20,471 nt of DNA from IMG/VR virus record IMGVR_UViG_3300048580_000715, positions 1 to 20,471 of that record. One strand, given 5' to 3'. Source of the DNA: a virus. The position numbers were made by a program, and so were the translations under genes. The notes below the pieces were generated by a model. That model was not told the origin of the DNA. It saw nothing but the letters and a program-made list of their open reading frames with translations, and did no database searches. Below, piece after piece: positions 1 through 7,799 of the stretch (position 1 is the stretch's first letter; every line of letters starts with the position of its first letter).

Positions 1-882
1 TACTTTGAATCCGCGTAAAATAAAATAAAGAAAATCTTGGATAGATTTAATCGTGGGAATATTTCTTATGTTATTTTTTATTTTTCCGTCAATAAATTTA
101 ATATGAGATAATCCATAACGAATGGTGTCATTTTCTATTTTAAATTCTAGATTTTTAGAGTTAATATTTGGTGGGAGTATTTTTATACCAAACCTTTTTG
201 CGTCCTGTGCCATTTTATTAAGTTCATAGAATGGCTTTATCTTTTCTTTACTGTAGGAAAGATAGGTGGCGAAAAAGTATTTTGGATAATGGGTTTTTAA
301 ATATGCTGTATGATAAGAAACAAATGCGTAACTAATTGAGTGTGAAAGATTAAAAGCGTAGCGACCGGCATTTTTAAGTACATCAAAAAGAGTTTTTGAT
401 AGTTCTTCGCTTACGCCGTTTTGAATACATCCATCGGTGAATTCTTTTCCTATAGAAAGAATTTTTGCACTATCTTTTTTACCTACCGCTTTTCTTAGAT
501 CATCTGATTTAGATAGTCTTTCAAGTTCTGGTAAATGTTGCCACGCTACTCTTTGAGCTAAAAGAATTAATTGTTCTTGGAAAAAGATATTAAAATTAGT
601 ACTCTTCAAAATAGAATCTACAATTGGATGATTTGTTTTTTCTATTTTTGATGGATCGTTTTTATATTTCAAATAGCGATCCATAGCACCAGATTGTAAA
701 CTGGCGGGTCGAACACCGGCAATAACTACCGATAATTCCCATATATTTCTAGGTTTAATCTTAGATAACCAATTTTGTACTAGTGGACTTTCGCATTGAA
801 AAACTCCGTTCGTTTTTCCGCTAGCAATTAAATCCCAAGTTTTTTGGTCGTCTAAAGGAAGTTTATCTATTTCTATTAACAT
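1..882 (-). CDS. dnaE: DNA polymerase III alpha, C-terminal half (fingers onward), partial at window edge
   Basis: This is the fingers and downstream part of a bacterial replicative polymerase (family C). The reading frame is open from an ATG at 880-882 to the left edge, giving 294 residues without a stop. Seen motifs match DnaE in order: PLDDQKTW near residue 9, GVFQCES, RPASLQSGAMD, FFQEQL, LRKAVGKKD, AFNLSHSISYAFVSYHTAYL and KILPPNIN. These correspond to E. coli DnaE from about residue 585 onward. The PHP domain and palm are absent here and lie in a separate gene at 2843-4510. The ATG is chosen because an in-frame TAA sits just upstream at 901-903 and the protein begins exactly where the homologous segment begins. 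It overlaps the preceding nuclease gene by 20 bp. No intein motifs are visible at its start. Inference: it assembles with the N-terminal half into a working polymerase. Confidence 0.93.
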   Translation of the reverse strand, partial: MLIEIDKLPLDDQKTWDLIASGKTNGVFQCESPLVQNWLSKIKPRNIWELSVVIAGVRPASLQSGAMDRYLKYKNDPSKIEKTNHPIVDSILKSTNFNIFFQEQLILLAQRVAWQHLPELERLSKSDDLRKAVGKKDSAKILSIGKEFTDGCIQNGVSEELSKTLFDVLKNAGRYAFNLSHSISYAFVSYHTAYLKTHYPKYFFATYLSYSKEKIKPFYELNKMAQDAKRFGIKILPPNINSKNLEFKIENDTIRYGLSHIKFIDGKIKNNIRNIPTIKSIQDFLYFILRGFKV

Positions 883-1384
883 AGAACCAATTAAAATCTT
901 TTATAGGTAGTCTTTTTTGTTTTTTGCCCCAAAAAAAGACATCTGGATATCCATCTAATACCGCCTGCATATCAAGGGGCGTTAATATTGTGTAACGGAT
1001 ATTTTCCGTATCAATTCCCATAAACATTACTACACAACAATCTTGTTTTATATAGCTTTTAAGCTGAGATGTTTTTAAGTGAAAGATTTTAAAGTCTTTT
1101 CGACAAAATTTGATTTCTATTGCTCTATCTTTTCCTTTAGCTTTTTTTAATAGAAAATCGGCCTTAGTTGTTACTTCTCTATCTTTTTCAATTAATTTAC
1201 CACTATTATCAATACCGTTGTCTATAAATGTATAGACCAGTCCACCTTTTCTTTTATTAAGGTCGTCTACATACAAACACATCAATTCACGCTCTATCTT
1301 AGTACACTCTATTATATCGTTGGCGAATTGATTTTTAGTGCGATTGTCTTTTCTATAATTCAAAGCCCGAAATAAATCTTTCAA
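863..1384 (-). CDS. PD-(D/E)XK-type nuclease, small
   Basis: A 173-residue protein with a restriction-endonuclease-like core: D76 in KADFLL, then E90-I-K92 in AIEIKF, followed by a Q-rich helix (QLKSY at about 107-111). This D...ExK pattern is the catalytic signature of the PD-(D/E)XK superfamily, so a metal-dependent DNA nuclease or resolvase role is likely; the substrate is unknown. The start is a TTG at 1382-1384, since the first in-frame ATG would remove 34 residues; only a weak GAAG lies upstream. It follows the DnaQ-like gene after 25 bp, the largest gap in the minus-strand chain, and overlaps the C-terminal polymerase half by 20 bp. A replication-repair role, or a remnant of an invading nuclease gene that helped split the polymerase, are both possible; neither is shown. 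Confidence 0.7.
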   Translation of the reverse strand: MKDLFRALNYRKDNRTKNQFANDIIECTKIERELMCLYVDDLNKRKGGLVYTFIDNGIDNSGKLIEKDREVTTKADFLLKKAKGKDRAIEIKFCRKDFKIFHLKTSQLKSYIKQDCCVVMFMGIDTENIRYTILTPLDMQAVLDGYPDVFFWGKKQKRLPIKDFNWFYVNRNR

Positions 1385-1409
1385 TTAACTTCGAGTTATG
1401 CACGATTGA

Positions 1410-2048
1410 TTAATTGTTTACTTTAATCTTTTTCTTAAATTGTCGATATAGTTTCATAAATCTGATAAATGCTTTAGCTCCGATCTTTACATCTTCTAGA
1501 GCATCGTGAGTCGCTGCCGTTCTTGACATACCTAATACGCTTGCCAAAGAATCTAGTGTATACTTTGAAACTTCCGGATCGGATTCGTAAAGACTAAAAA
1601 AGAAAGCCCAAGTATCTAAAGGTCTAGAACAAAAGGGTAAATCGTCTCTTTTTTTGTATAATTTATGTTTATCAAATAAGGCATCATGAATCATCATTAA
1701 ATCGTATGTAATATTGTGACCAACAACAAATGGCTGTCCATAAAACTTTTTACCCGGAGTGGTGTTATAACTATTAATCCAATCCATGAATTTCTGAAGT
1801 CCCACTTTAGGTTCTATACCCTCTTTTTTACATTTTTCAAAAACGTCTTGTCCAATAACTTCTATGGCTTTAGGACTAGCTAATTCTGGAGTAAGAGGTT
1901 TCAGAAAAATTTGAAATTCGCCATCTTCATAAAATTCTAGGGTAGTAGGATTAATAGCTACCGCCGCAATTTGTATGATTTCTGCACCCTCTTTAGGATC
2001 AAGACCAGTTGTTTCGGTATCTAAAAAAATAAAAGGCTGTTTATTCAA
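1410..2048 (-). CDS. dnaQ: DnaQ-type 3'-5' proofreading exonuclease (DEDDh)
   Basis: A 212-residue DEDDh exonuclease. Exo I is FLDTETTGLD (D10, E12), Exo II is VVGHNITYD (D116), and Exo III is THDALEDV (H181, D186), so all four acidic residues and the histidine are present. Members of this family remove mismatched 3' ends, as the epsilon subunit does for polymerase III. Length is close to the catalytic domain of epsilon (about 180-240 residues); no clear clamp-binding motif was recognised. It lies between the two halves of polymerase III alpha, so it is the probable proofreading partner of that enzyme. Its ATG overlaps the upstream SLOG gene stop by 4 bp (ATGA), indicating translational coupling. 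The basic C-terminus (YRQFKKKIKV) could contact DNA or the polymerase. Confidence 0.93.
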   Translation of the reverse strand: MNKQPFIFLDTETTGLDPKEGAEIIQIAAVAINPTTLEFYEDGEFQIFLKPLTPELASPKAIEVIGQDVFEKCKKEGIEPKVGLQKFMDWINSYNTTPGKKFYGQPFVVGHNITYDLMMIHDALFDKHKLYKKRDDLPFCSRPLDTWAFFFSLYESDPEVSKYTLDSLASVLGMSRTAATHDALEDVKIGAKAFIRFMKLYRQFKKKIKVNN

Positions 2049-2545
2049 AACAAAATCTCCTCATTTTCTTCGTTAGAGGCGGTATCTTTAGTTGCTGTAT
2101 TTAGTTCAATTTTTATATATTTTTTATTATTGTCTTTTTTAAAGTATAACTTATCTAATAGATAATATACTATATCGCTTTGTTCTATAAGAATAGAATC
2201 TTTCTTTTTAAGTTTATCTAAAGACCATTCGCCGTTTTCTACTTGATTTACTGATTTGGCTGATAAAAGTAGGTTTTGATATTCTTCTTGCGATGATTTG
2301 GGCCAAATTTTTTCTTGATCATTAAACGTTAAAAACACATGATATGGTATATTGTGTCGATTACATAATTTACCAACAATGAATTCGATACCGTATGATA
2401 AAGATGTAAATACCTGTATATTCTTGTTTTCCAATAAGATTTTTTCAAGATGATGCTCCACTTTGGTTAAAGCGTCATCCCCATATTCTTGGATCAAATC
2501 TTTTGGTCGTTTTCCTAAAAACGTTATGCCTGTTAATTTTTTCAT
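2045..2545 (-). CDS. SLOG-fold (DUF1273/YpsA-like) nucleotide-binding protein 1
   Basis: A 166-residue Rossmann-like protein of the SLOG superfamily, best compared with YpsA/DUF1273. Seen: an N-terminal strand and loop ITFLGKRP, then VFTSLSYGIEFIVGKL at about 45-60 (the counterpart of the ISGxxxGVE segment that contacts a nucleotide ligand), then YHVFLTFNDQEKIWP and a QSDIVYYLL strand before the C-terminus. SLOG domains bind or act on nucleotide derivatives and include signal sensors. The ligand here is unknown. Its gene overlaps both neighbours by 4 bp (ATGA), and it sits between the polymerase N-half and DnaQ. The last 20 residues are acidic and low in complexity. A second, divergent SLOG protein is encoded at 6263-6766. 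Confidence 0.65.
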   Translation of the reverse strand: MKKLTGITFLGKRPKDLIQEYGDDALTKVEHHLEKILLENKNIQVFTSLSYGIEFIVGKLCNRHNIPYHVFLTFNDQEKIWPKSSQEEYQNLLLSAKSVNQVENGEWSLDKLKKKDSILIEQSDIVYYLLDKLYFKKDNNKKYIKIELNTATKDTASNEENEEILF

Positions 2546-2853
2546 ACTATTAATTTACCCGATCTGTTAGATAAGTCCGAAGGAACATTTTGAGCCACAA
2601 CTAATTGATTTCTCATCTGTTCCGCTTTTTTCTCCATAATTTCCATATATTCCTGTCTTACTGAGTCTATTTTTTCAAATGCCTCTTTTAGAGAGGAAAC
2701 CTTCATAACACAAGATGCTTCCATAATCCCCATTTCAGGGTGTAGTACTGGAACAGGTGTGGTATACTTGATAGTATTAGGATTATCAACATCAACTAAT
2801 ACTTTGACTTCTTTTCCATCATCCGATAAATATGATTCGCATTTATATATCAT
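2542..2853 (-). CDS. Hypothetical protein, 103 aa
   Basis: Not recognised. The N-terminal 55 residues look like a small beta-rich domain (MIYKCESYLSDDGKEVKVLV), followed by a charged helix around residues 53-85 rich in Glu, Lys and Met. There are no cysteine pairs, signal peptide or membrane segment. A good Shine-Dalgarno GAGGAA (minus strand, 2858-2863) sits 4 bases before the ATG at 2851-2853, which supports the start. The gene overlaps the end of the polymerase N-half by 11 bp and the SLOG gene by 4 bp, so it is likely co-translated with replication proteins. Confidence 0.75.
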   Translation of the reverse strand: MIYKCESYLSDDGKEVKVLVDVDNPNTIKYTTPVPVLHPEMGIMEASCVMKVSSLKEAFEKIDSVRQEYMEIMEKKAEQMRNQLVVAQNVPSDLSNRSGKLIV

Positions 2854-4510
2854 TTGATTCCTCTGTTTCGTATTCTATAATCTCAGGCTCACTTAAATTC
2901 ATTTCCACCATTTTACAAATTTCATCTATTTTAGAATATGCTGCAACAGACAGCAAATCGTATTTTACGGCACCGCAGTATTCTACGTCCTGCATTTTTA
3001 GTGCAACTATCTCTGAATCTTTTTCGGGATCGTAGTAAATTGGCAAAAAATCTTTCAAAGGGATGTCGGCCAAGACCAATCCAGCCGCGTGTTGACTAAA
3101 ATTTCTAATTGTATTATTAAGGCGGATTGCTTTATCGAATTCGTTTTTATTTTCTTGATAATATTTATTAATGTTTTCTATATAGTCAACATTGTAATTA
3201 ATAATGTTATATTTTGGATCAACTTGTTTTAAATCTTCTAGTTCGTCTTGAACCTTTGCTTCGTCAATCATATTTTGAGTAATTTCGTTGGCTAGATCAA
3301 AAGATTTATCATAAATACGGAAAACCTCTTTGATAGCCATTTTTGCTTTAATTTTACCAAAGGCTGCAATATGGGCGGTATTTTCTTTCCCGTATTTTTT
3401 GTAAATATATTCTTTTAGTTTGTTTCTAAAAGCAATAGGAATATCTATATCTACGTCTGGTAAAGCGTTTTTACCTTCCGCCAAACGTCCTTTGTTAATA
3501 AAACGCGAAAAGAGTAAAGATTTGTCTGGATCGTATGGTATTGTAGGATCGGGCCATACTGGATCAATATTTGTAACGCCGATTAAATAGAATACCAAAC
3601 TGCCAACCGCCGATCCTCTTAATCCAACTCTAGCATTATTTTCTTTGGCATAATTTGTAAAATCTCTTACTAGTAAAACATAGTTAGAAATATTGTATTT
3701 GTTTAAGGTTTCTAGTTCTTCTTTAATTCGTTCTACATAAACTGATTTTAGTTCTGGATTGTCTTTTAATCTTACATTTAGATTTCTTTCTGTCCACCCT
3801 TTTCTACAAAGAGATGTAAGATAGTCATTTGGATTTACGGCTTTATTTTGATCATCTTTAAATATAGGTAATCTCGAAGGCATAGCGATGTCATAGAATT
3901 CAAATTGTTCTATGAATTTAGTGTCGTTATTATTGATGGATTTTACGTTGTTTTCAAAATAATTGTTTGTACCGTCAAAAAATTTCTTGTATTCGGGGTA
4001 ATTTTTGATGATTTCTTGTTGGTTATCTATATTCGTTTTTAATTTACTACAGATAATAATTTGCTGGAAAACTCGATCTTTTTCGTCAAGATAATAGATT
4101 TCTTTAAATTTATTATTATCCGACAATTCGACCAATAAATCTTTTTCTTGTTTAATTTTTTCTAAGTCCTCATCAAAGATATCAGAACTTTTATATTTTT
4201 CATAGTGTTCTTTAGAGTTTAATGATGAAATAGTTTGTACTAGCTTAAACCATCCATCTTTATTTTTAGCTAAAATATGTATCTTGTTTTTGTTGTAAAA
4301 AGACGTAAAACCTAAAATTGGTAGAACTTTATGTTCTGATTTTTTATTTCTTTTTAAAATCAACTGTATTATTTCAGGGCATCCAGATACAGAATTGATA
4401 TCAGCAATGATAAAAGCTGGAATTTTATATTCATACAATTTGTCAATCATTTCATCAATATGACAAAATGCCTGTTGTATAGAATAATGAGTGTAAAAAA
4501 GATTAATCAT
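2843..4510 (-). CDS. dnaE: DNA polymerase III alpha, N-terminal half (PHP domain and palm with all three catalytic aspartates)
   Basis: A 555-residue N-terminal half of family C polymerase. Residues 1-100 are a PHP-like domain whose metal-binding histidines and aspartates are mostly lost (THYSIQQAF, FIIADINSVSG), so PHP exonuclease activity is unlikely. The palm holds GLRGSAVGSLVFYLIG (297-311), PDVDIDI (351-357, catalytic D354 and D356), HIAAFGKIKAKMAIKEV, SQHAAGLVLAD (482-492), and VKYDLL with D518, the third catalytic aspartate. The protein then ends after a short acidic tail (YETEESNDI). Fingers and later domains are encoded separately at 1-882, with no homologous segment missing between the halves. 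Start ATG at 4508-4510 overlaps the upstream 59-aa gene by 4 bp. The catalytic residues are complete, which argues against decay. Confidence 0.94.
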   Translation of the reverse strand: MINLFYTHYSIQQAFCHIDEMIDKLYEYKIPAFIIADINSVSGCPEIIQLILKRNKKSEHKVLPILGFTSFYNKNKIHILAKNKDGWFKLVQTISSLNSKEHYEKYKSSDIFDEDLEKIKQEKDLLVELSDNNKFKEIYYLDEKDRVFQQIIICSKLKTNIDNQQEIIKNYPEYKKFFDGTNNYFENNVKSINNNDTKFIEQFEFYDIAMPSRLPIFKDDQNKAVNPNDYLTSLCRKGWTERNLNVRLKDNPELKSVYVERIKEELETLNKYNISNYVLLVRDFTNYAKENNARVGLRGSAVGSLVFYLIGVTNIDPVWPDPTIPYDPDKSLLFSRFINKGRLAEGKNALPDVDIDIPIAFRNKLKEYIYKKYGKENTAHIAAFGKIKAKMAIKEVFRIYDKSFDLANEITQNMIDEAKVQDELEDLKQVDPKYNIINYNVDYIENINKYYQENKNEFDKAIRLNNTIRNFSQHAAGLVLADIPLKDFLPIYYDPEKDSEIVALKMQDVEYCGAVKYDLLSVAAYSKIDEICKMVEMNLSEPEIIEYETEESNDI

Positions 4511-4686
4511 GATTTTAAGTTTTCGTTATCGGCAGGCGACCAATCGACCTTAACTGTCTTTTGCTTCTTATCATCTTTCATGATACTATTCTTATAACTT
4601 GTTAGAGTGTCGCGTTTTTTATTTAATATCTCTATAGTTTTATCTAGTAATGATAGTTCAGAATCTAAATATTCTATTATACTCAT
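4507..4686 (-). CDS. Small protein, 59 aa
   Basis: A short open frame from ATG 4684-4686 to TGA 4507-4509 fills the otherwise empty space between the Fe-S nuclease and the polymerase N-half. It overlaps both by exactly 4 bp (ATGA at each end), the same coupling used elsewhere in this chain, which is the main evidence that it is real. The first 30 residues form a leucine-rich amphipathic helix (EYLDSELSLLDKTIEILNKK), likely a coiled coil, followed by a Lys/Asp-rich tail with VDWSPADN. Function not recognised; an adaptor or accessory peptide for a neighbouring replication protein is a guess. Confidence 0.7.
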   Translation of the reverse strand: MSIIEYLDSELSLLDKTIEILNKKRDTLTSYKNSIMKDDKKQKTVKVDWSPADNENLKS

Positions 4687-5669
4687 TGAATTACTCCTTT
4701 AAACATTTTCTTAAAGGTTCTGTTGGTTTTTTTACCATTTACAGTAAGTTCTTGTATTTTTAAAGCCGCCCCATTAAGACCGTGTTCTTTGTACATTTTA
4801 TAGTATTTATCGCATAAAGAAACACCATTTTCTTCTGTTCTTCCAAAATAACACACTTTTCTACATTTAAAATGTTGATGTTTTCTTTCATCATTATCTT
4901 TTAATCTTTTAGGATCATTATCTAAAACTATCGCTCTAAATATTTTTCTTATCTTATCTAAGATATCGGCCTCGCTAGTTTCATCTAGTGATACTGTAAA
5001 TGGACCACCTTCTTTGAGATAGTAAAGAGTCAATAACCTTTTTTTGTTTGGAAAGGCATAATGAGCAGCTAGATTATATATTTGTATTTGTAAATCTTGA
5101 TCAATATTTTCGTGAGTTTTATCTTTGCCTGTTATCCAGTCTTTTCGTTGGCCGGTCTTGTAATCAACGATTTCAATGATATTATCATTGACTTTTGTAA
5201 TTAAGTCTATAAAACCATTGATAGTAAAAAACCCGGTCTTTTCTTCGTTGGTTTTAAAATCGGTATATTTATACGAAAATCCTTTTTTTTGTATTTGAAT
5301 TTCAAAGCCCATTTCGACAGCAATTGTTTCCATTTTAAGCGGATTATACATTGTTTTCATTATACTCTCGCATAATTTTAGAATGGTTTTATAATCACCG
5401 TCAGTAAAATGAAGATGTGGATTTGTTCTACTTTCTCTTGCTAGACAAATTTTAGATAAATATATTATATCAACGTATTTATCATTTAATAAATGGTGTC
5501 CGGTTTTTTTTGCCTTAGAAAGAATTTCCATAACCTTGTGGACTACCGTACCTATTACCGCCGCTTTTCCGGACGGTTCACGAATTTTGCAATAATAATT
5601 TAGATAGTACTTCCAAGCACAATCTTGATAAGTTTCTAAAGCACTTTTAGACGCTCGTTCTATTTGCAT
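4683..5669 (-). CDS. Cas4/AddB-like PD-(D/E)XK exonuclease with predicted 4Fe-4S cluster
   Basis: A 328-residue RecB-family nuclease. Seen in order: KSALETYQDCAWKYYL (C17), the GTVVHKVME motif with H44, GFIDLI with D155, EIVDYKTG with D169 and K171, and the QIQIYNLA motif (Q194, Y198). Near the C-terminus are C269, C273 and C286. One N-terminal cysteine plus a C-terminal three-cysteine cluster is the arrangement that holds a 4Fe-4S cluster in Cas4 and AddB proteins. Such enzymes are single-strand or end-processing DNA exonucleases. No cas1, cas2 or CRISPR repeats are nearby, so a role in phage recombination or DNA end processing with RecA is more likely than adaptation. It overlaps the upstream small gene by 10 bp. 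Confidence 0.88.
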   Translation of the reverse strand: MQIERASKSALETYQDCAWKYYLNYYCKIREPSGKAAVIGTVVHKVMEILSKAKKTGHHLLNDKYVDIIYLSKICLARESRTNPHLHFTDGDYKTILKLCESIMKTMYNPLKMETIAVEMGFEIQIQKKGFSYKYTDFKTNEEKTGFFTINGFIDLITKVNDNIIEIVDYKTGQRKDWITGKDKTHENIDQDLQIQIYNLAAHYAFPNKKRLLTLYYLKEGGPFTVSLDETSEADILDKIRKIFRAIVLDNDPKRLKDNDERKHQHFKCRKVCYFGRTEENGVSLCDKYYKMYKEHGLNGAALKIQELTVNGKKTNRTFKKMFKGVIQ

Positions 5670-5869
5670 AATTTATACAAAGTCCCTTTTATATCTTGTG
5701 TGATAATTTCTATCTTATATCCTTTTCTAGAAAGATATTTTATTTGATCTTCCGGAAGAAATCCCATAGGGGTTTTGACTTCAATAGGAAGTTCTTTGTT
5801 AATAATTTGATCTAAAACATAATTTGCCACAAATTCAATTGTTGGTTTTTCTTTTTTATTTTTTGCCAT
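5660..5869 (-). CDS. Hypothetical protein, 69 aa
   Basis: Not recognised. A lysine-rich N-terminus (MAKNKKEKP) precedes a compact region with helix-strand character (VANYVLDQIINKELPIEV, EDQIKYLSRKGYKIEII). The middle (PEDQIKYLSRKGYKI) could be a small DNA-binding helix pair, but this is a weak guess. It lies one base after the RNase H gene start-to-stop chain and overlaps the Fe-S nuclease start by 10 bp; a weak GAGAT precedes its ATG at 5867-5869. Confidence 0.7.
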   Translation of the reverse strand: MAKNKKEKPTIEFVANYVLDQIINKELPIEVKTPMGFLPEDQIKYLSRKGYKIEIITQDIKGTLYKLCK

Positions 5870-5870
5870 T

Positions 5871-6266
5871 TTATCTCATCAATCTATCGCAAGCGTTATT
5901 ATTTTCTCTTGAAATCCAACTAAAAGAGATATCTTCAATATCTAGTTGATCTATTTTTTCTAGACATCTGATGTAAACCTCTTTTAAATGAGGAGGTTTT
6001 ACCTTAGATTCTTTATTCATTTGATCTATCAAATTTTTGCAGTCACCGTATATTTCTATAGAAGATAGACCCTCAAATTCTAATAAATCTGTCAAAAGTT
6101 CTTCTAATGCTAAAAACTCTGCTAAATTAGAAGTGCATATATTTCCCTTTTTAATTCCTTGCTTTTGCTTTATAATCTCTTCTTTTTCATTTTTAATTAT
6201 GAAAGCCCAAGACATTTCTTTTTTAGCACACTTAAATCCGCCGTCAAAATAACAAATTAATTTCAT
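5871..6266 (-). CDS. rnhA: Ribonuclease HI-like protein
   Basis: A 131-residue RNase H-fold protein that would cleave the RNA strand of RNA-DNA hybrids, for example Okazaki primers. The four acidic positions are visible: D8 in YFDGG, E50 in NLAEFLALEEL, D75 in EIYGDCKNLID, and D127 in NNACDRL. Length is slightly below the bacterial norm (about 150 residues), and the protein ends right after the last acidic motif, lacking the usual C-terminal extension. The basic protrusion of E. coli RNase HI is not evident. It overlaps the second SLOG gene by 4 bp. Presence beside primase, helicase and polymerase fits primer removal. Confidence 0.88.
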   Translation of the reverse strand: MKLICYFDGGFKCAKKEMSWAFIIKNEKEEIIKQKQGIKKGNICTSNLAEFLALEELLTDLLEFEGLSSIEIYGDCKNLIDQMNKESKVKPPHLKEVYIRCLEKIDQLDIEDISFSWISRENNNACDRLMR

Positions 6267-6766
6267 AAAGAGATGTAGTAAATTTTTTTATTGTTTTTCA
6301 AACTTTTAGTAAGTAAAGAACATTTGGTTTTGTATATGTTTTTAACATAGATAATTACATCAGAATTTTCTATAATAAAATTGTTTCTGTTGATATTTTT
6401 TTTAGGAGAATATTCGCCCTTATACAATAATTCAATATTATTAGCGTATTTAATTATATTGTTAAGTTTATCAAAATTAGAAATCCATAAATCTTCTTCG
6501 TACTCATTAGCTAAATATATATTGTATTTTATAGAATTTTTAAAACAAGAAACGGCAAATTCATAATCTATACCATTATTTAATCCGCAGTAACCGATTA
6601 TTGAATTCTTTTTGTTTTTTTCTGATTTAAAAATATAAGAAATGTAATCTTGAAGAATTTTTCTTGACGGATAATCAAAATCATATCCGCCTAATTGATA
6701 TCCTTTTGGACCTATAATTCCAACATTGATAATGTTATTAGTTTTTGCCATGAGGTTTCGATTCAT
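6263..6766 (-). CDS. SLOG-fold nucleotide-binding protein 2
   Basis: A 167-residue protein with a SLOG/DUF1273-like layout: strand and loop VGIIGPKGYQLGGYD (about 15-29), then SIIGYCGLNNGIDYEFAVSC (about 55-74, the GxxxGxD/E ligand loop), then YNIYLANEYEEDLW, and IIENSDVIIYV near residue 135 with a final YYISL strand. It is clearly diverged from the SLOG protein at 2045-2545. It follows GMP reductase and precedes RNase H. SLOG relatives include nucleotide nucleosidases (LOG type) and sensors of nucleotide signals, so the purine gene next door is suggestive only. The ATG at 6764-6766 has a GGAT just upstream; a second in-frame ATG at 6749-6751 is an alternative start. It overlaps the GMP reductase end by 29 bp. 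Confidence 0.6.
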   Translation of the reverse strand: MNRNLMAKTNNIINVGIIGPKGYQLGGYDFDYPSRKILQDYISYIFKSEKNKKNSIIGYCGLNNGIDYEFAVSCFKNSIKYNIYLANEYEEDLWISNFDKLNNIIKYANNIELLYKGEYSPKKNINRNNFIIENSDVIIYVKNIYKTKCSLLTKSLKNNKKIYYISL

Positions 6767-7799
6767 TTAATCCAGCCTGACTAATTTTTACAAATTTAGA
6801 TTGTTCATATAATTCTGTTATATTATTGACTCCGAGATAAGACATGCCCGACTTAATACCACCCACTAAAAGGTCTAGTGTAGATTTTACAGGACCGCTA
6901 GAATCTATTAAGAAACTTTCGCCTTCTGGCGTGATATCACATCTATAAATATTATTATCTTTTTGAAATTCGTAAGACGACTGGCCTCTGTATTCTTTAT
7001 AGTTATGACCATTTGAATGAATAATCGAAGAAGGCGATTCATCACAGGATGCTAGTATTTTTCCTATCATAACACTATTTGCACCAACAGCTAAGGCTTT
7101 GACTATATCTCCTGAATTTTTAATACCACCATCGGCTATAATATGATATTTATTTTGATTGCATAAATCTCTAGTACATAGAGCCTTTTTAATATTTGCA
7201 ATTGCCGATATTTGAGGTACTCCGCATCCGGTCATAATTCTTGTTGTACAAGCTGCACCCGGACCTATTCCACATTTAAAATTAATAACACCAAGATCAA
7301 ATAATCTTAACGCGGCATCTCCGGTGCATATATTTCCAACAATTAAATTGATATTTTTATTATTCTTTAGTAATTCTTTAATGTATTCATGCACATGAAA
7401 ATTGTCGGCATTAGCAATATCTAAACATAAATTTAATTTATCGGAATTTAGTAGATTTGATATTTCGTCTATTTCGGTTTGTTGGGTTTTTATACCAATA
7501 CTTAAGAATGGTAATTCTTTAGTAATTATTTGGTATTCTTTTATTTGAGCTTGATATTTATCTTTACTTTTATAAAATCTATGAAATATTCCAAGACCCC
7601 TACATTCTCTCATAGATTTTGCCATATTAATTTCAGTAACAGAATCCATATTTGCTGATATAATAGGAATATCAAGTTTGATATTTCCAATATTAGTAGA
7701 TAAATTTAATGACGAATCTCGTCTTGATTTTATATTAGAGAAATTAGGTACAAGTAAAACATCATCAAAAGAATAAGTTTCTTCAAGCCATGAAAGCAT
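6738..7799 (-). CDS. guaC: GMP reductase / IMP dehydrogenase family enzyme, CBS-less, GMP reductase more likely
   Basis: A 353-residue TIM-barrel enzyme of the IMPDH/GMPR family. Seen: [10 protein letters not shown] at the N-terminus, [10 protein letters not shown], the catalytic loop [11 protein letters not shown] (C184, T186), [17 protein letters not shown], a flap with YRGQSS and PEGES (E292), and [12 protein letters not shown]. The regulatory CBS domains of typical IMPDH are absent and the length equals GMP reductase (about 347). CLDIAN at 125-130 resembles the GMPR version (CLDVAN) rather than the IMPDH version, which favours NADPH-dependent conversion of GMP to IMP. IMP dehydrogenase without CBS domains remains possible. 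It overlaps the nucleotide kinase by 17 bp. In an AT-rich phage, turning guanine nucleotides back to IMP could feed adenine supply; this is inference. Confidence 0.88.

Follow-up and report, generated by a model that had tools for sequence, protein, structure and literature searches.

A bacteriophage DNA polymerase III alpha subunit probably made as two chains, cut between palm and fingers with dnaQ in the gap

Replicative polymerases encoded in pieces differ in where the break falls and in how the parts come together. In cyanobacteria, DnaE, the alpha subunit of DNA polymerase III (Pol III alpha), is interrupted at the FNK/SHS site, and a split intein joins its parts. As for proofreading partners, PolC carries its exonuclease inside the chain, and E. 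coli alpha is one chain whose epsilon is encoded elsewhere. Among phages, the accessible text of Iyer et al. 2021 (PMC7824862) describes group 2.2 jumbo phages with a minimal Pol III alpha in two distant genes beside a family B polymerase; the two parts, one binding the nucleoside triphosphate (NTP) and one Mg and template, are proposed there to reconstitute one enzyme. The jumbo phage MIJ3, according to the accessible parts of its description (PMC6892783), divides its DNA polymerase B between two genes, with an HNH endonuclease in between and a putative split intein. Here, we analyse the DnaE locus of IMG/VR record IMGVR_UViG_3300048580_000715, a linear phage fragment of 20,471 bases taken whole as our window, in which DnaE is not one polypeptide but two open reading frames (ORFs) 1.96 kb apart with four genes between them. 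We put at roughly 0.8 the probability that a phage replicative Pol III alpha is made here as two chains that assemble non-covalently, with DnaQ as proofreader, following a cut of a one-piece dnaE.

The original prediction, made from the window alone, could not say whether this arrangement had been described. The phage precedent is Iyer et al. 2021, different in form, and in the literature, subscription papers mostly excepted, we recognised no other description. Like the group 2.2 jumbo phages, our locus presents the Pol III alpha catalytic module as two separate proteins; as far as the accessible text of that study (PMC7824862) and our own sequence comparisons go, it is cut elsewhere, is more complete, has its genes in another order and shows no PF00136 polymerase. 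The jumbo-phage enzyme is minimal and without PHP, whereas the window has a PHP fold and OB; the jumbo-phage halves are distant, whereas split loci here keep theirs 0.6-2.8 kb apart (112 of 113 loci) with dnaQ between; group 2.2 is accompanied by a family B polymerase, whereas PF00136 was matched in 0 of 15 large relatives; and all palm motifs lie in one chain, unlike the division into NTP-binding and Mg/template-binding parts. In Atu_ph07, a palm match (positions 18-98 of 260) lies at 241 kb and a sub-threshold finger match at 58 kb, 182 kb away. MIJ3 is alike, as far as its accessible description goes, in that two genes encode the replicative polymerase of a phage and a further gene separates them, and unlike in family (B), intein and endonuclease. 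Cyanobacterial DnaE likewise occupies two genes, and in PolC and E. coli alpha-epsilon, too, Pol III alpha works with a DEDDh exonuclease.

Both halves stand on the minus strand in the coordinates and reading frames given by the original prediction. L numbers denote the loci compared here, L003 being a longer near-identical contig and G002 the contig of L005 and L032.

2843..4510, minus strand: DnaE N-half, 555 aa: a PHP-like domain that has lost its metal ligands, the thumb, and a palm bearing the GS motif, the DxD pair D354 and D356, and D518 as third Asp
1..882, minus strand: DnaE C-half, 294 of 514 aa inside the window (the window edge cuts the gene), with fingers and the start of HhH
L003 6001-7545, on the longer contig: C-half with the part missing from the window, including the OB fold
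1410..2048, minus strand: DnaQ-like DEDDh 3'-5' exonuclease between the halves, putative proofreading subunit (RNase_T, 9.8e-18)

The full 514 aa of the C-half can be read from record IMGVR_UViG_3300045999_009387, which matches the window over 20,471 bases with one mismatch. In Pfam, the N-half matches PHP (E 2.6e-08) and DNA_pol3_alpha (3e-59 over residues 230-520), and the C-half DNA_pol3_finger (4.1e-30 over residues 3-156) and HHH_6 (5.5e-07), its homology starting at residue 3-5. On phrog_405 (1190 positions) the N-half ends at 620 and the C-half begins at 623, in agreement with the claim that no segment is missing between them. The invariant palm columns (GS motif, DxD and third Asp) are present in the N-half, with D518 as the third catalytic Asp, as had been predicted; fingers, HhH and OB follow the palm in native order (Pfam finger and HHH_6; C-half model).

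AlphaFold models of each half alone were built from alignments of loci found here, one of 46 sequences (drawn from 52, some of which were dropped; the window stands in for L003, L004 runs to its full end and L008 is an addition) and a further one of 44 of 63 sequences; L219 was excluded from the structure alignment (N in its DNA). Mean predicted local distance difference test (pLDDT) scores were 88.8 for the N-half and 93.4 for the C-half. Residues 1-545 of the N-half model correspond to E. coli alpha 6-582 (4jom and 2hqa; Z 33.1, root-mean-square deviation (rmsd) 3.7, 491 and 490 residues), and the C-half model 1-514 to E. coli alpha 582-1073 (5fku; Z 21.3, rmsd 7.2, 458 residues) and to Taq alpha 641-1121 (3e0d; Z 21.7, rmsd 3.4, 425 residues); the high rmsd in some comparisons may come from domain movement. 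Since the models cover E. coli alpha 6-582 and 582-1073, the two predicted chains tile the one-chain enzyme without a gap, in line with the alignment to full-length DnaE that had been proposed as a check. Beyond the last palm helix (523-540) the N-half has a short tail, and the cut lies in the loop at this point; the last ten N-half residues have pLDDT <50. At the other end, the C-half stops near residue 1073 of E. coli alpha's 1160, and the far C-terminus has no counterpart.

The split is conserved beyond the window. L004 shows an identical order of six genes, with an N-half 69% identical to that of the window and a C-half whose first 83 residues, where the contig stops, are 83% identical. 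The ratio of non-synonymous to synonymous substitution rates (dN/dS) between the window and L004 (Nei-Gojobori) is roughly 0.115 for the N-half, 0.065 for the C-half (83 codons) and 0.103 for dnaQ, values that indicate purifying selection on both halves. In a more distant lineage (L005-L008), the cut lies at the identical point, with dnaQ and an Endonuclease_NS gene between the halves. IMG/VR was searched with C-half alignments, taking the best 80 matches per search, and loci were classed by palm and finger profiles; the census leaves out L044-L048 (contigs already counted) and the loci of a further search, likewise its best 80, and L051 and L057 are without a finger start. It comprises 170 virus loci (113 split, 55 intact and 2 unclassified for want of a finger start), counts that give no frequency, since likeness to split enzymes decided which loci entered. 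With some contigs retrieved twice, the 113 split loci hold only 90 distinct finger sequences. The gene dnaQ lies between the halves in 112 of the 113, the exception in distance being L107 with 0.2 kb between stop-to-stop ORFs. In the simplest form, e.g., L078, dnaQ is alone in the gap, with slight overlaps; the L078 dnaQ has 9 phage matches, all weak. A search with an N-half alignment, its patterns lying outside the conserved core, yielded 14 loci, of which 6 were on contigs found before.

These results answer the proposed search of related phages for the same split, and recurrence of the junction in many other contigs excludes an assembly rearrangement. Continuous relatives exist (L058, L069, L086, L095 and L112), yet no frame-disrupting error is seen in the window, where N-half and C-half start and stop separately and have tails of their own. 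Beyond what had been predicted, the arrangement is widespread, dnaQ in the gap is constant, and a phage precedent is published. Among cultured phages, the matches listed (out of 1,255-1,307 matching records per search) include 16 phages (17 records) with both N- and C-matches; these lie 6-75 bases apart, always a multiple of three, implying one frame in those 16.

Other broken polymerases were encountered along with these loci. L219, on a contig of a Flavobacteriales metagenome-assembled genome (MAG), and L220, on one of a Lokiarchaeota MAG, are short contigs with a split polymerase and dnaQ between; they are probably phage contigs, and the assignments give a hint of host, no proof. In L256, a Saccharibacteria contig, dnaE was marked as split by the classification script, by a frameshift or a real break. 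Bacillus phage G (gp329, gp331, gp339) is alike in having a phage DnaE in several genes, and was rejected as a further case: the last of its breaks comes ahead of the third Asp, and the gene also contains an intein plus intervening sequences with a homing endonuclease (self-splicing introns are mentioned for its DNA polymerase III in the accessible text of PMC7824862). Alicyclobacillus phage MMB025, broken inside the fingers with an endonuclease between, was likewise set aside.

Several lines of evidence suggest that the split enzyme is likely the replicase of these phages. Fifteen large split-gene contigs (89-167 kb; record completeness not stated) each hold a single palm gene (in G002, the palm lies in two ORFs around an intein), and a second polymerase of PF00476 (family A) or PF00136 (family B) was found in 0 of 15. 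The concern that an intact dnaE elsewhere might make the halves redundant is answered in part, by one palm in the 40-kb near-identical contig and one in each of the 15 large relatives. The catalytic columns of the palm ORF read GSDDKD in 106 of 113 loci and NSDDKD in seven; four of the seven rows are of the L005 type, in which an intein ends just before that Ser, and we take the other three (L077, L178 and L179) to be alike, the L077 palm being seen as two ORFs. Across the 90 distinct finger sequences, the catalytic and binding residues of palm and fingers are retained together, and the DEDDh set is kept in 112 of 112 dnaQ. Conservation, selection, predicted structure and the absence of a second palm or of PF00476/PF00136 in the large relatives all speak for a functional two-piece enzyme and not a pseudogene, as first proposed.

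The accessible parts of PMC12926913 give the active PHP motif as HHDHEH[C/H]DH and report that PHP is often inactivated, the inactive domain being compensated by DnaQ; nine PHP residues are given in the accessible parts of PMC5636811. We tabulated this motif for 75 rows (those with a palm start among 94 representatives plus three). The window keeps 0 of 9 ligands in a shortened region, with the fold still recognised by Pfam. Intact L058, L086 and L112 keep all nine, as do intact L069, by reading of the alignment, and L107, the split locus in which no dnaQ was found. Of 29 split rows, only L107 keeps all nine in this way; five read HHDHEHHDH with dnaQ, 21 have 0-2 ligands, one is truncated (L195) and one has unread bases (L219). 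With a profile of the 112 dnaQ, which could miss other DnaQ kinds, no dnaQ was found at E<=10 within ~8 kb on each side of L058, L069, L086, L095, L112 and L107. The putative link between DnaQ and alpha in the split phages is read from gene order and the intact DEDDh set.

Phylogenetic analysis addressed the history of the cut. In the fingers-only tree (94 representatives), 26 split rows all fall in one 31-row family together with 5 intact phages (SH-aLRT 98; 3 state changes). In the palm and finger tree (49 rows), the window and 24 split representatives with dnaQ form one clade (99/98), and L107 stands apart among intact L058, L069, L086, L095 and L112, with 2 changes forced by supported branches; one clade of all 26 split rows was rejected (p-AU 0.009, for a group chosen after the first tree). 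The palm and finger tree and this rejection indicate that L107 was cut separately at the same palm/fingers border. In L107 (5859-9518), a 129-aa zinc-ribbon-like protein lies between the halves (Zn_ribbon_8 E 3.1e-05, under cut-off). The window, L058 and L069 share the order Toprim primase, PDDEXK_1, dnaE, glycosyltransferase, with other genes interspersed (the window's glycosyltransferase gene is on the longer contig), which argues that the cut arose in place. A PDDEXK_1 gene stands ahead of dnaE in two intact loci (L058, L069) and two split ones (L107, L005). The gene downstream of L069 dnaE was labelled by eye as single-stranded DNA-binding protein, a label that was unconfirmed.

Could protein splicing through an unrecognised intein pair, or splicing of the RNA, nevertheless join the two halves covalently? 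Relatives do carry inteins, L005/G002 with a split-intein pair further down the same polymerase, and in phage G an intein and intervening sequences break up dnaE. Nonetheless, in the 113 loci the N-half tail after the palm profile measures 0-22 aa, the lead of the C-half does not exceed 68 aa (a stop-to-stop upper bound; median 12), and intein halves are longer than these. Accordingly short ends leave neither an IntN on the N-half nor an IntC on the C-half in the 113 loci, and window homology runs from C-half residue 3-5, which agrees with the lack of intein motifs noted in the original prediction. The FNK/SHS site is uninterrupted in the window C-half (residues 175-182), ~178 residues after the cut, which confirms that the break differs from the cyanobacterial split-intein site. 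Rfam gave two chance-level small RNA matches and no intron family in window 1-5700 at E<=1, and at gathering scores nothing in four further loci, including the phage G locus with reported introns. Neighbouring genes in the window's gap overlap by a few bases or sit 25 bases apart, leaving little room for an intron core. Given the short tails and leads and gap genes that overlap or nearly touch, the two chains are most likely not spliced, and covalent joining appears very improbable from these sequences.

A gene in decay or an assembly artefact would be the more familiar cause of a broken polymerase, fragmented bacterial polymerase genes being mostly frameshifts and some of them errors, according to the accessible parts of PMC3919608. 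The same junction in 113 loci, the gene order conserved in L004, low dN/dS, retained catalytic residues, and separate starts, stops and a tail in place of a frameshift make this practically negligible. It is unlikely, though less remote, that the halves have ceased to be a replicase, with the host polymerase in use and the pieces in other roles (e.g., the N-half as a DnaQ partner): the window PHP has decayed and shrunk and replicase activity is a prediction, but palm and finger residues are kept over 90 distinct finger sequences and the 15 large contigs have no second palm and no PF00476/PF00136 polymerase. As to direction, Pol III alpha could have begun as two pieces, with one-piece enzymes arising by fusion, a view that Iyer et al. 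hold for the minimal jumbo-phage version (accessible text of PMC7824862) and that our unrooted tree cannot address, since its change counts do not separate cut from fusion. However, with the exception of phage G, the DnaE of bacteria and of other viruses enter the trees undivided, and split rows sit in one 31-row family beside intact phages with the same dnaE neighbours, so we consider an ancestral split quite improbable.

The reading of two non-covalently assembled chains is not free of difficulties, and the following weigh against it. The binding of the two halves to each other is a prediction from sequence and single-chain models. The dN/dS values are rough, dS being 1.6-1.9 and near saturation and the C-half comparison covering 83 codons. 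The near-identical contig perhaps comes from a related sample and adds weak independent support, and the window record is a genome fragment, so that its own genome may hold an intact dnaE elsewhere. PF03175 (DNA_pol_B_2) was matched in 0 of 15 large contigs, an uninformative result given that controls gave no match either, and the Rfam negative is weak because the search also missed the introns reported in phage G. The fingers-only tree paired the window with intact L058, and in the palm and finger tree the window sits on a long branch. Finally, intact L095 has lost the PHP motif without a nearby dnaQ of the profile kind, and 21 of 46 intact rows score <=5 of 9 PHP ligands, some by truncation or misalignment; because of these losses, a takeover of PHP proofreading by DnaQ is only plausible.

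Under the two-chain reading, both chains would be translated from one operon and assemble non-covalently, the incoming nucleotide would be bound between the palm of chain 1 and the fingers of chain 2, and DnaQ from the gap gene would supply 3'-5' proofreading in place of the decayed N-half PHP domain. Historically, a one-piece dnaE would have been cut at the palm/fingers border at the same locus and dnaQ would have come into the gap, and in several branches of the clade with dnaQ the PHP active sites would have decayed; L107, a second lineage, would have been cut at the same border without dnaQ, its PHP motif kept intact. A bolder version, doubtful though worth stating, is that a wide clade of uncultured phages replicates with a three-chain core of alpha-N, epsilon and alpha-C, in which DnaQ would bridge the halves and the polymerase site would be complete only after the proofreader binds, so that assembly order would enforce fidelity. 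If two chains do make up the enzyme, palm and fingers can be independent subunits of a replicative polymerase, with an active site shared by two chains, and nature would already offer a template from which to build two-part, switchable polymerases. The states form a graded series: an uncut gene whose PHP is live, a cut gene that has a live PHP but lacks dnaQ, a cut gene with both dnaQ and a live PHP, and a cut gene in which dnaQ stands beside a dead PHP. This series would make the swap from PHP to DnaQ proofreading directly testable. A two-protein polymerase in uncultured bacteriophages is unusual, functional-looking and open to laboratory test.

The L005 type has inteins of its own. L005 (1116-4412 and 5992-7587) and L032 (1661-2776), both on G002, combine the naked palm/fingers gap with further polymerase pieces: an intein in the palm, another in the fingers that follows RPG and has an HNH-like stretch, and, at the YSFNK/SHA site, what looks like a split-intein pair. 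NCBIfam intein_Nterm matches residues 445-510 of the second piece and intein_Cterm residues 17-37 of the third, both over cut-offs, the third piece sitting at the opposite contig end. The intein pair at the FNK/SHS site is present in addition to the naked cut.

Along the minus strand, the window genes run PD-(D/E)XK nuclease, 59-aa protein, DnaE N-half, 103-aa protein, YpsA/SLOG, DnaQ, 173-aa protein, DnaE C-half. Those other than the halves and DnaQ are placed as follows.

4683..5669, minus strand: PD-(D/E)XK nuclease gene upstream of the N-half, a synteny marker
2542..2853, minus strand: 103-aa protein, no family above cut-off, overlapping the N-half end by 11 bases
2045..2545, minus strand: YpsA-type SLOG protein between the halves, outside the constant core (E 1.7e-09)
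863..1384, minus strand: 173-aa protein, putative nuclease (unproven), overlapping the C-half start by 20 bases

The original description of the gap holds for its 1.96 kb, the small protein, SLOG and DnaQ; the label of nuclease for the 173-aa protein does not, as only sub-threshold Pfam matches were found (NleE E 0.014, NOV_C 0.022). Among the four window gap genes, Pfam matched no known homing family, the 173-aa protein being without assignment. In relatives, 9 of 31 split loci have an Endonuclease_7-type gene family in the gap, where it lies after dnaQ and before the C-half (e.g., L075 7563-7988), one copy being confirmed at E 1.7e-14. A second gap family of 187-237 aa, in L008, L061, L071 and L075, has a sub-threshold HTH match only, and its by-eye HNH label is unconfirmed. 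Nuclease genes occur in this gap in several relatives and would fit a gap that arose by nuclease-driven insertion. Elsewhere in the window, a second, weaker YpsA/SLOG-like protein is found at 6263-6766 (E 0.0017, under cut-off), and a phage-encoded IMP dehydrogenase / GMP reductase domain protein at 6738-7799 (Pfam 1.6e-89).

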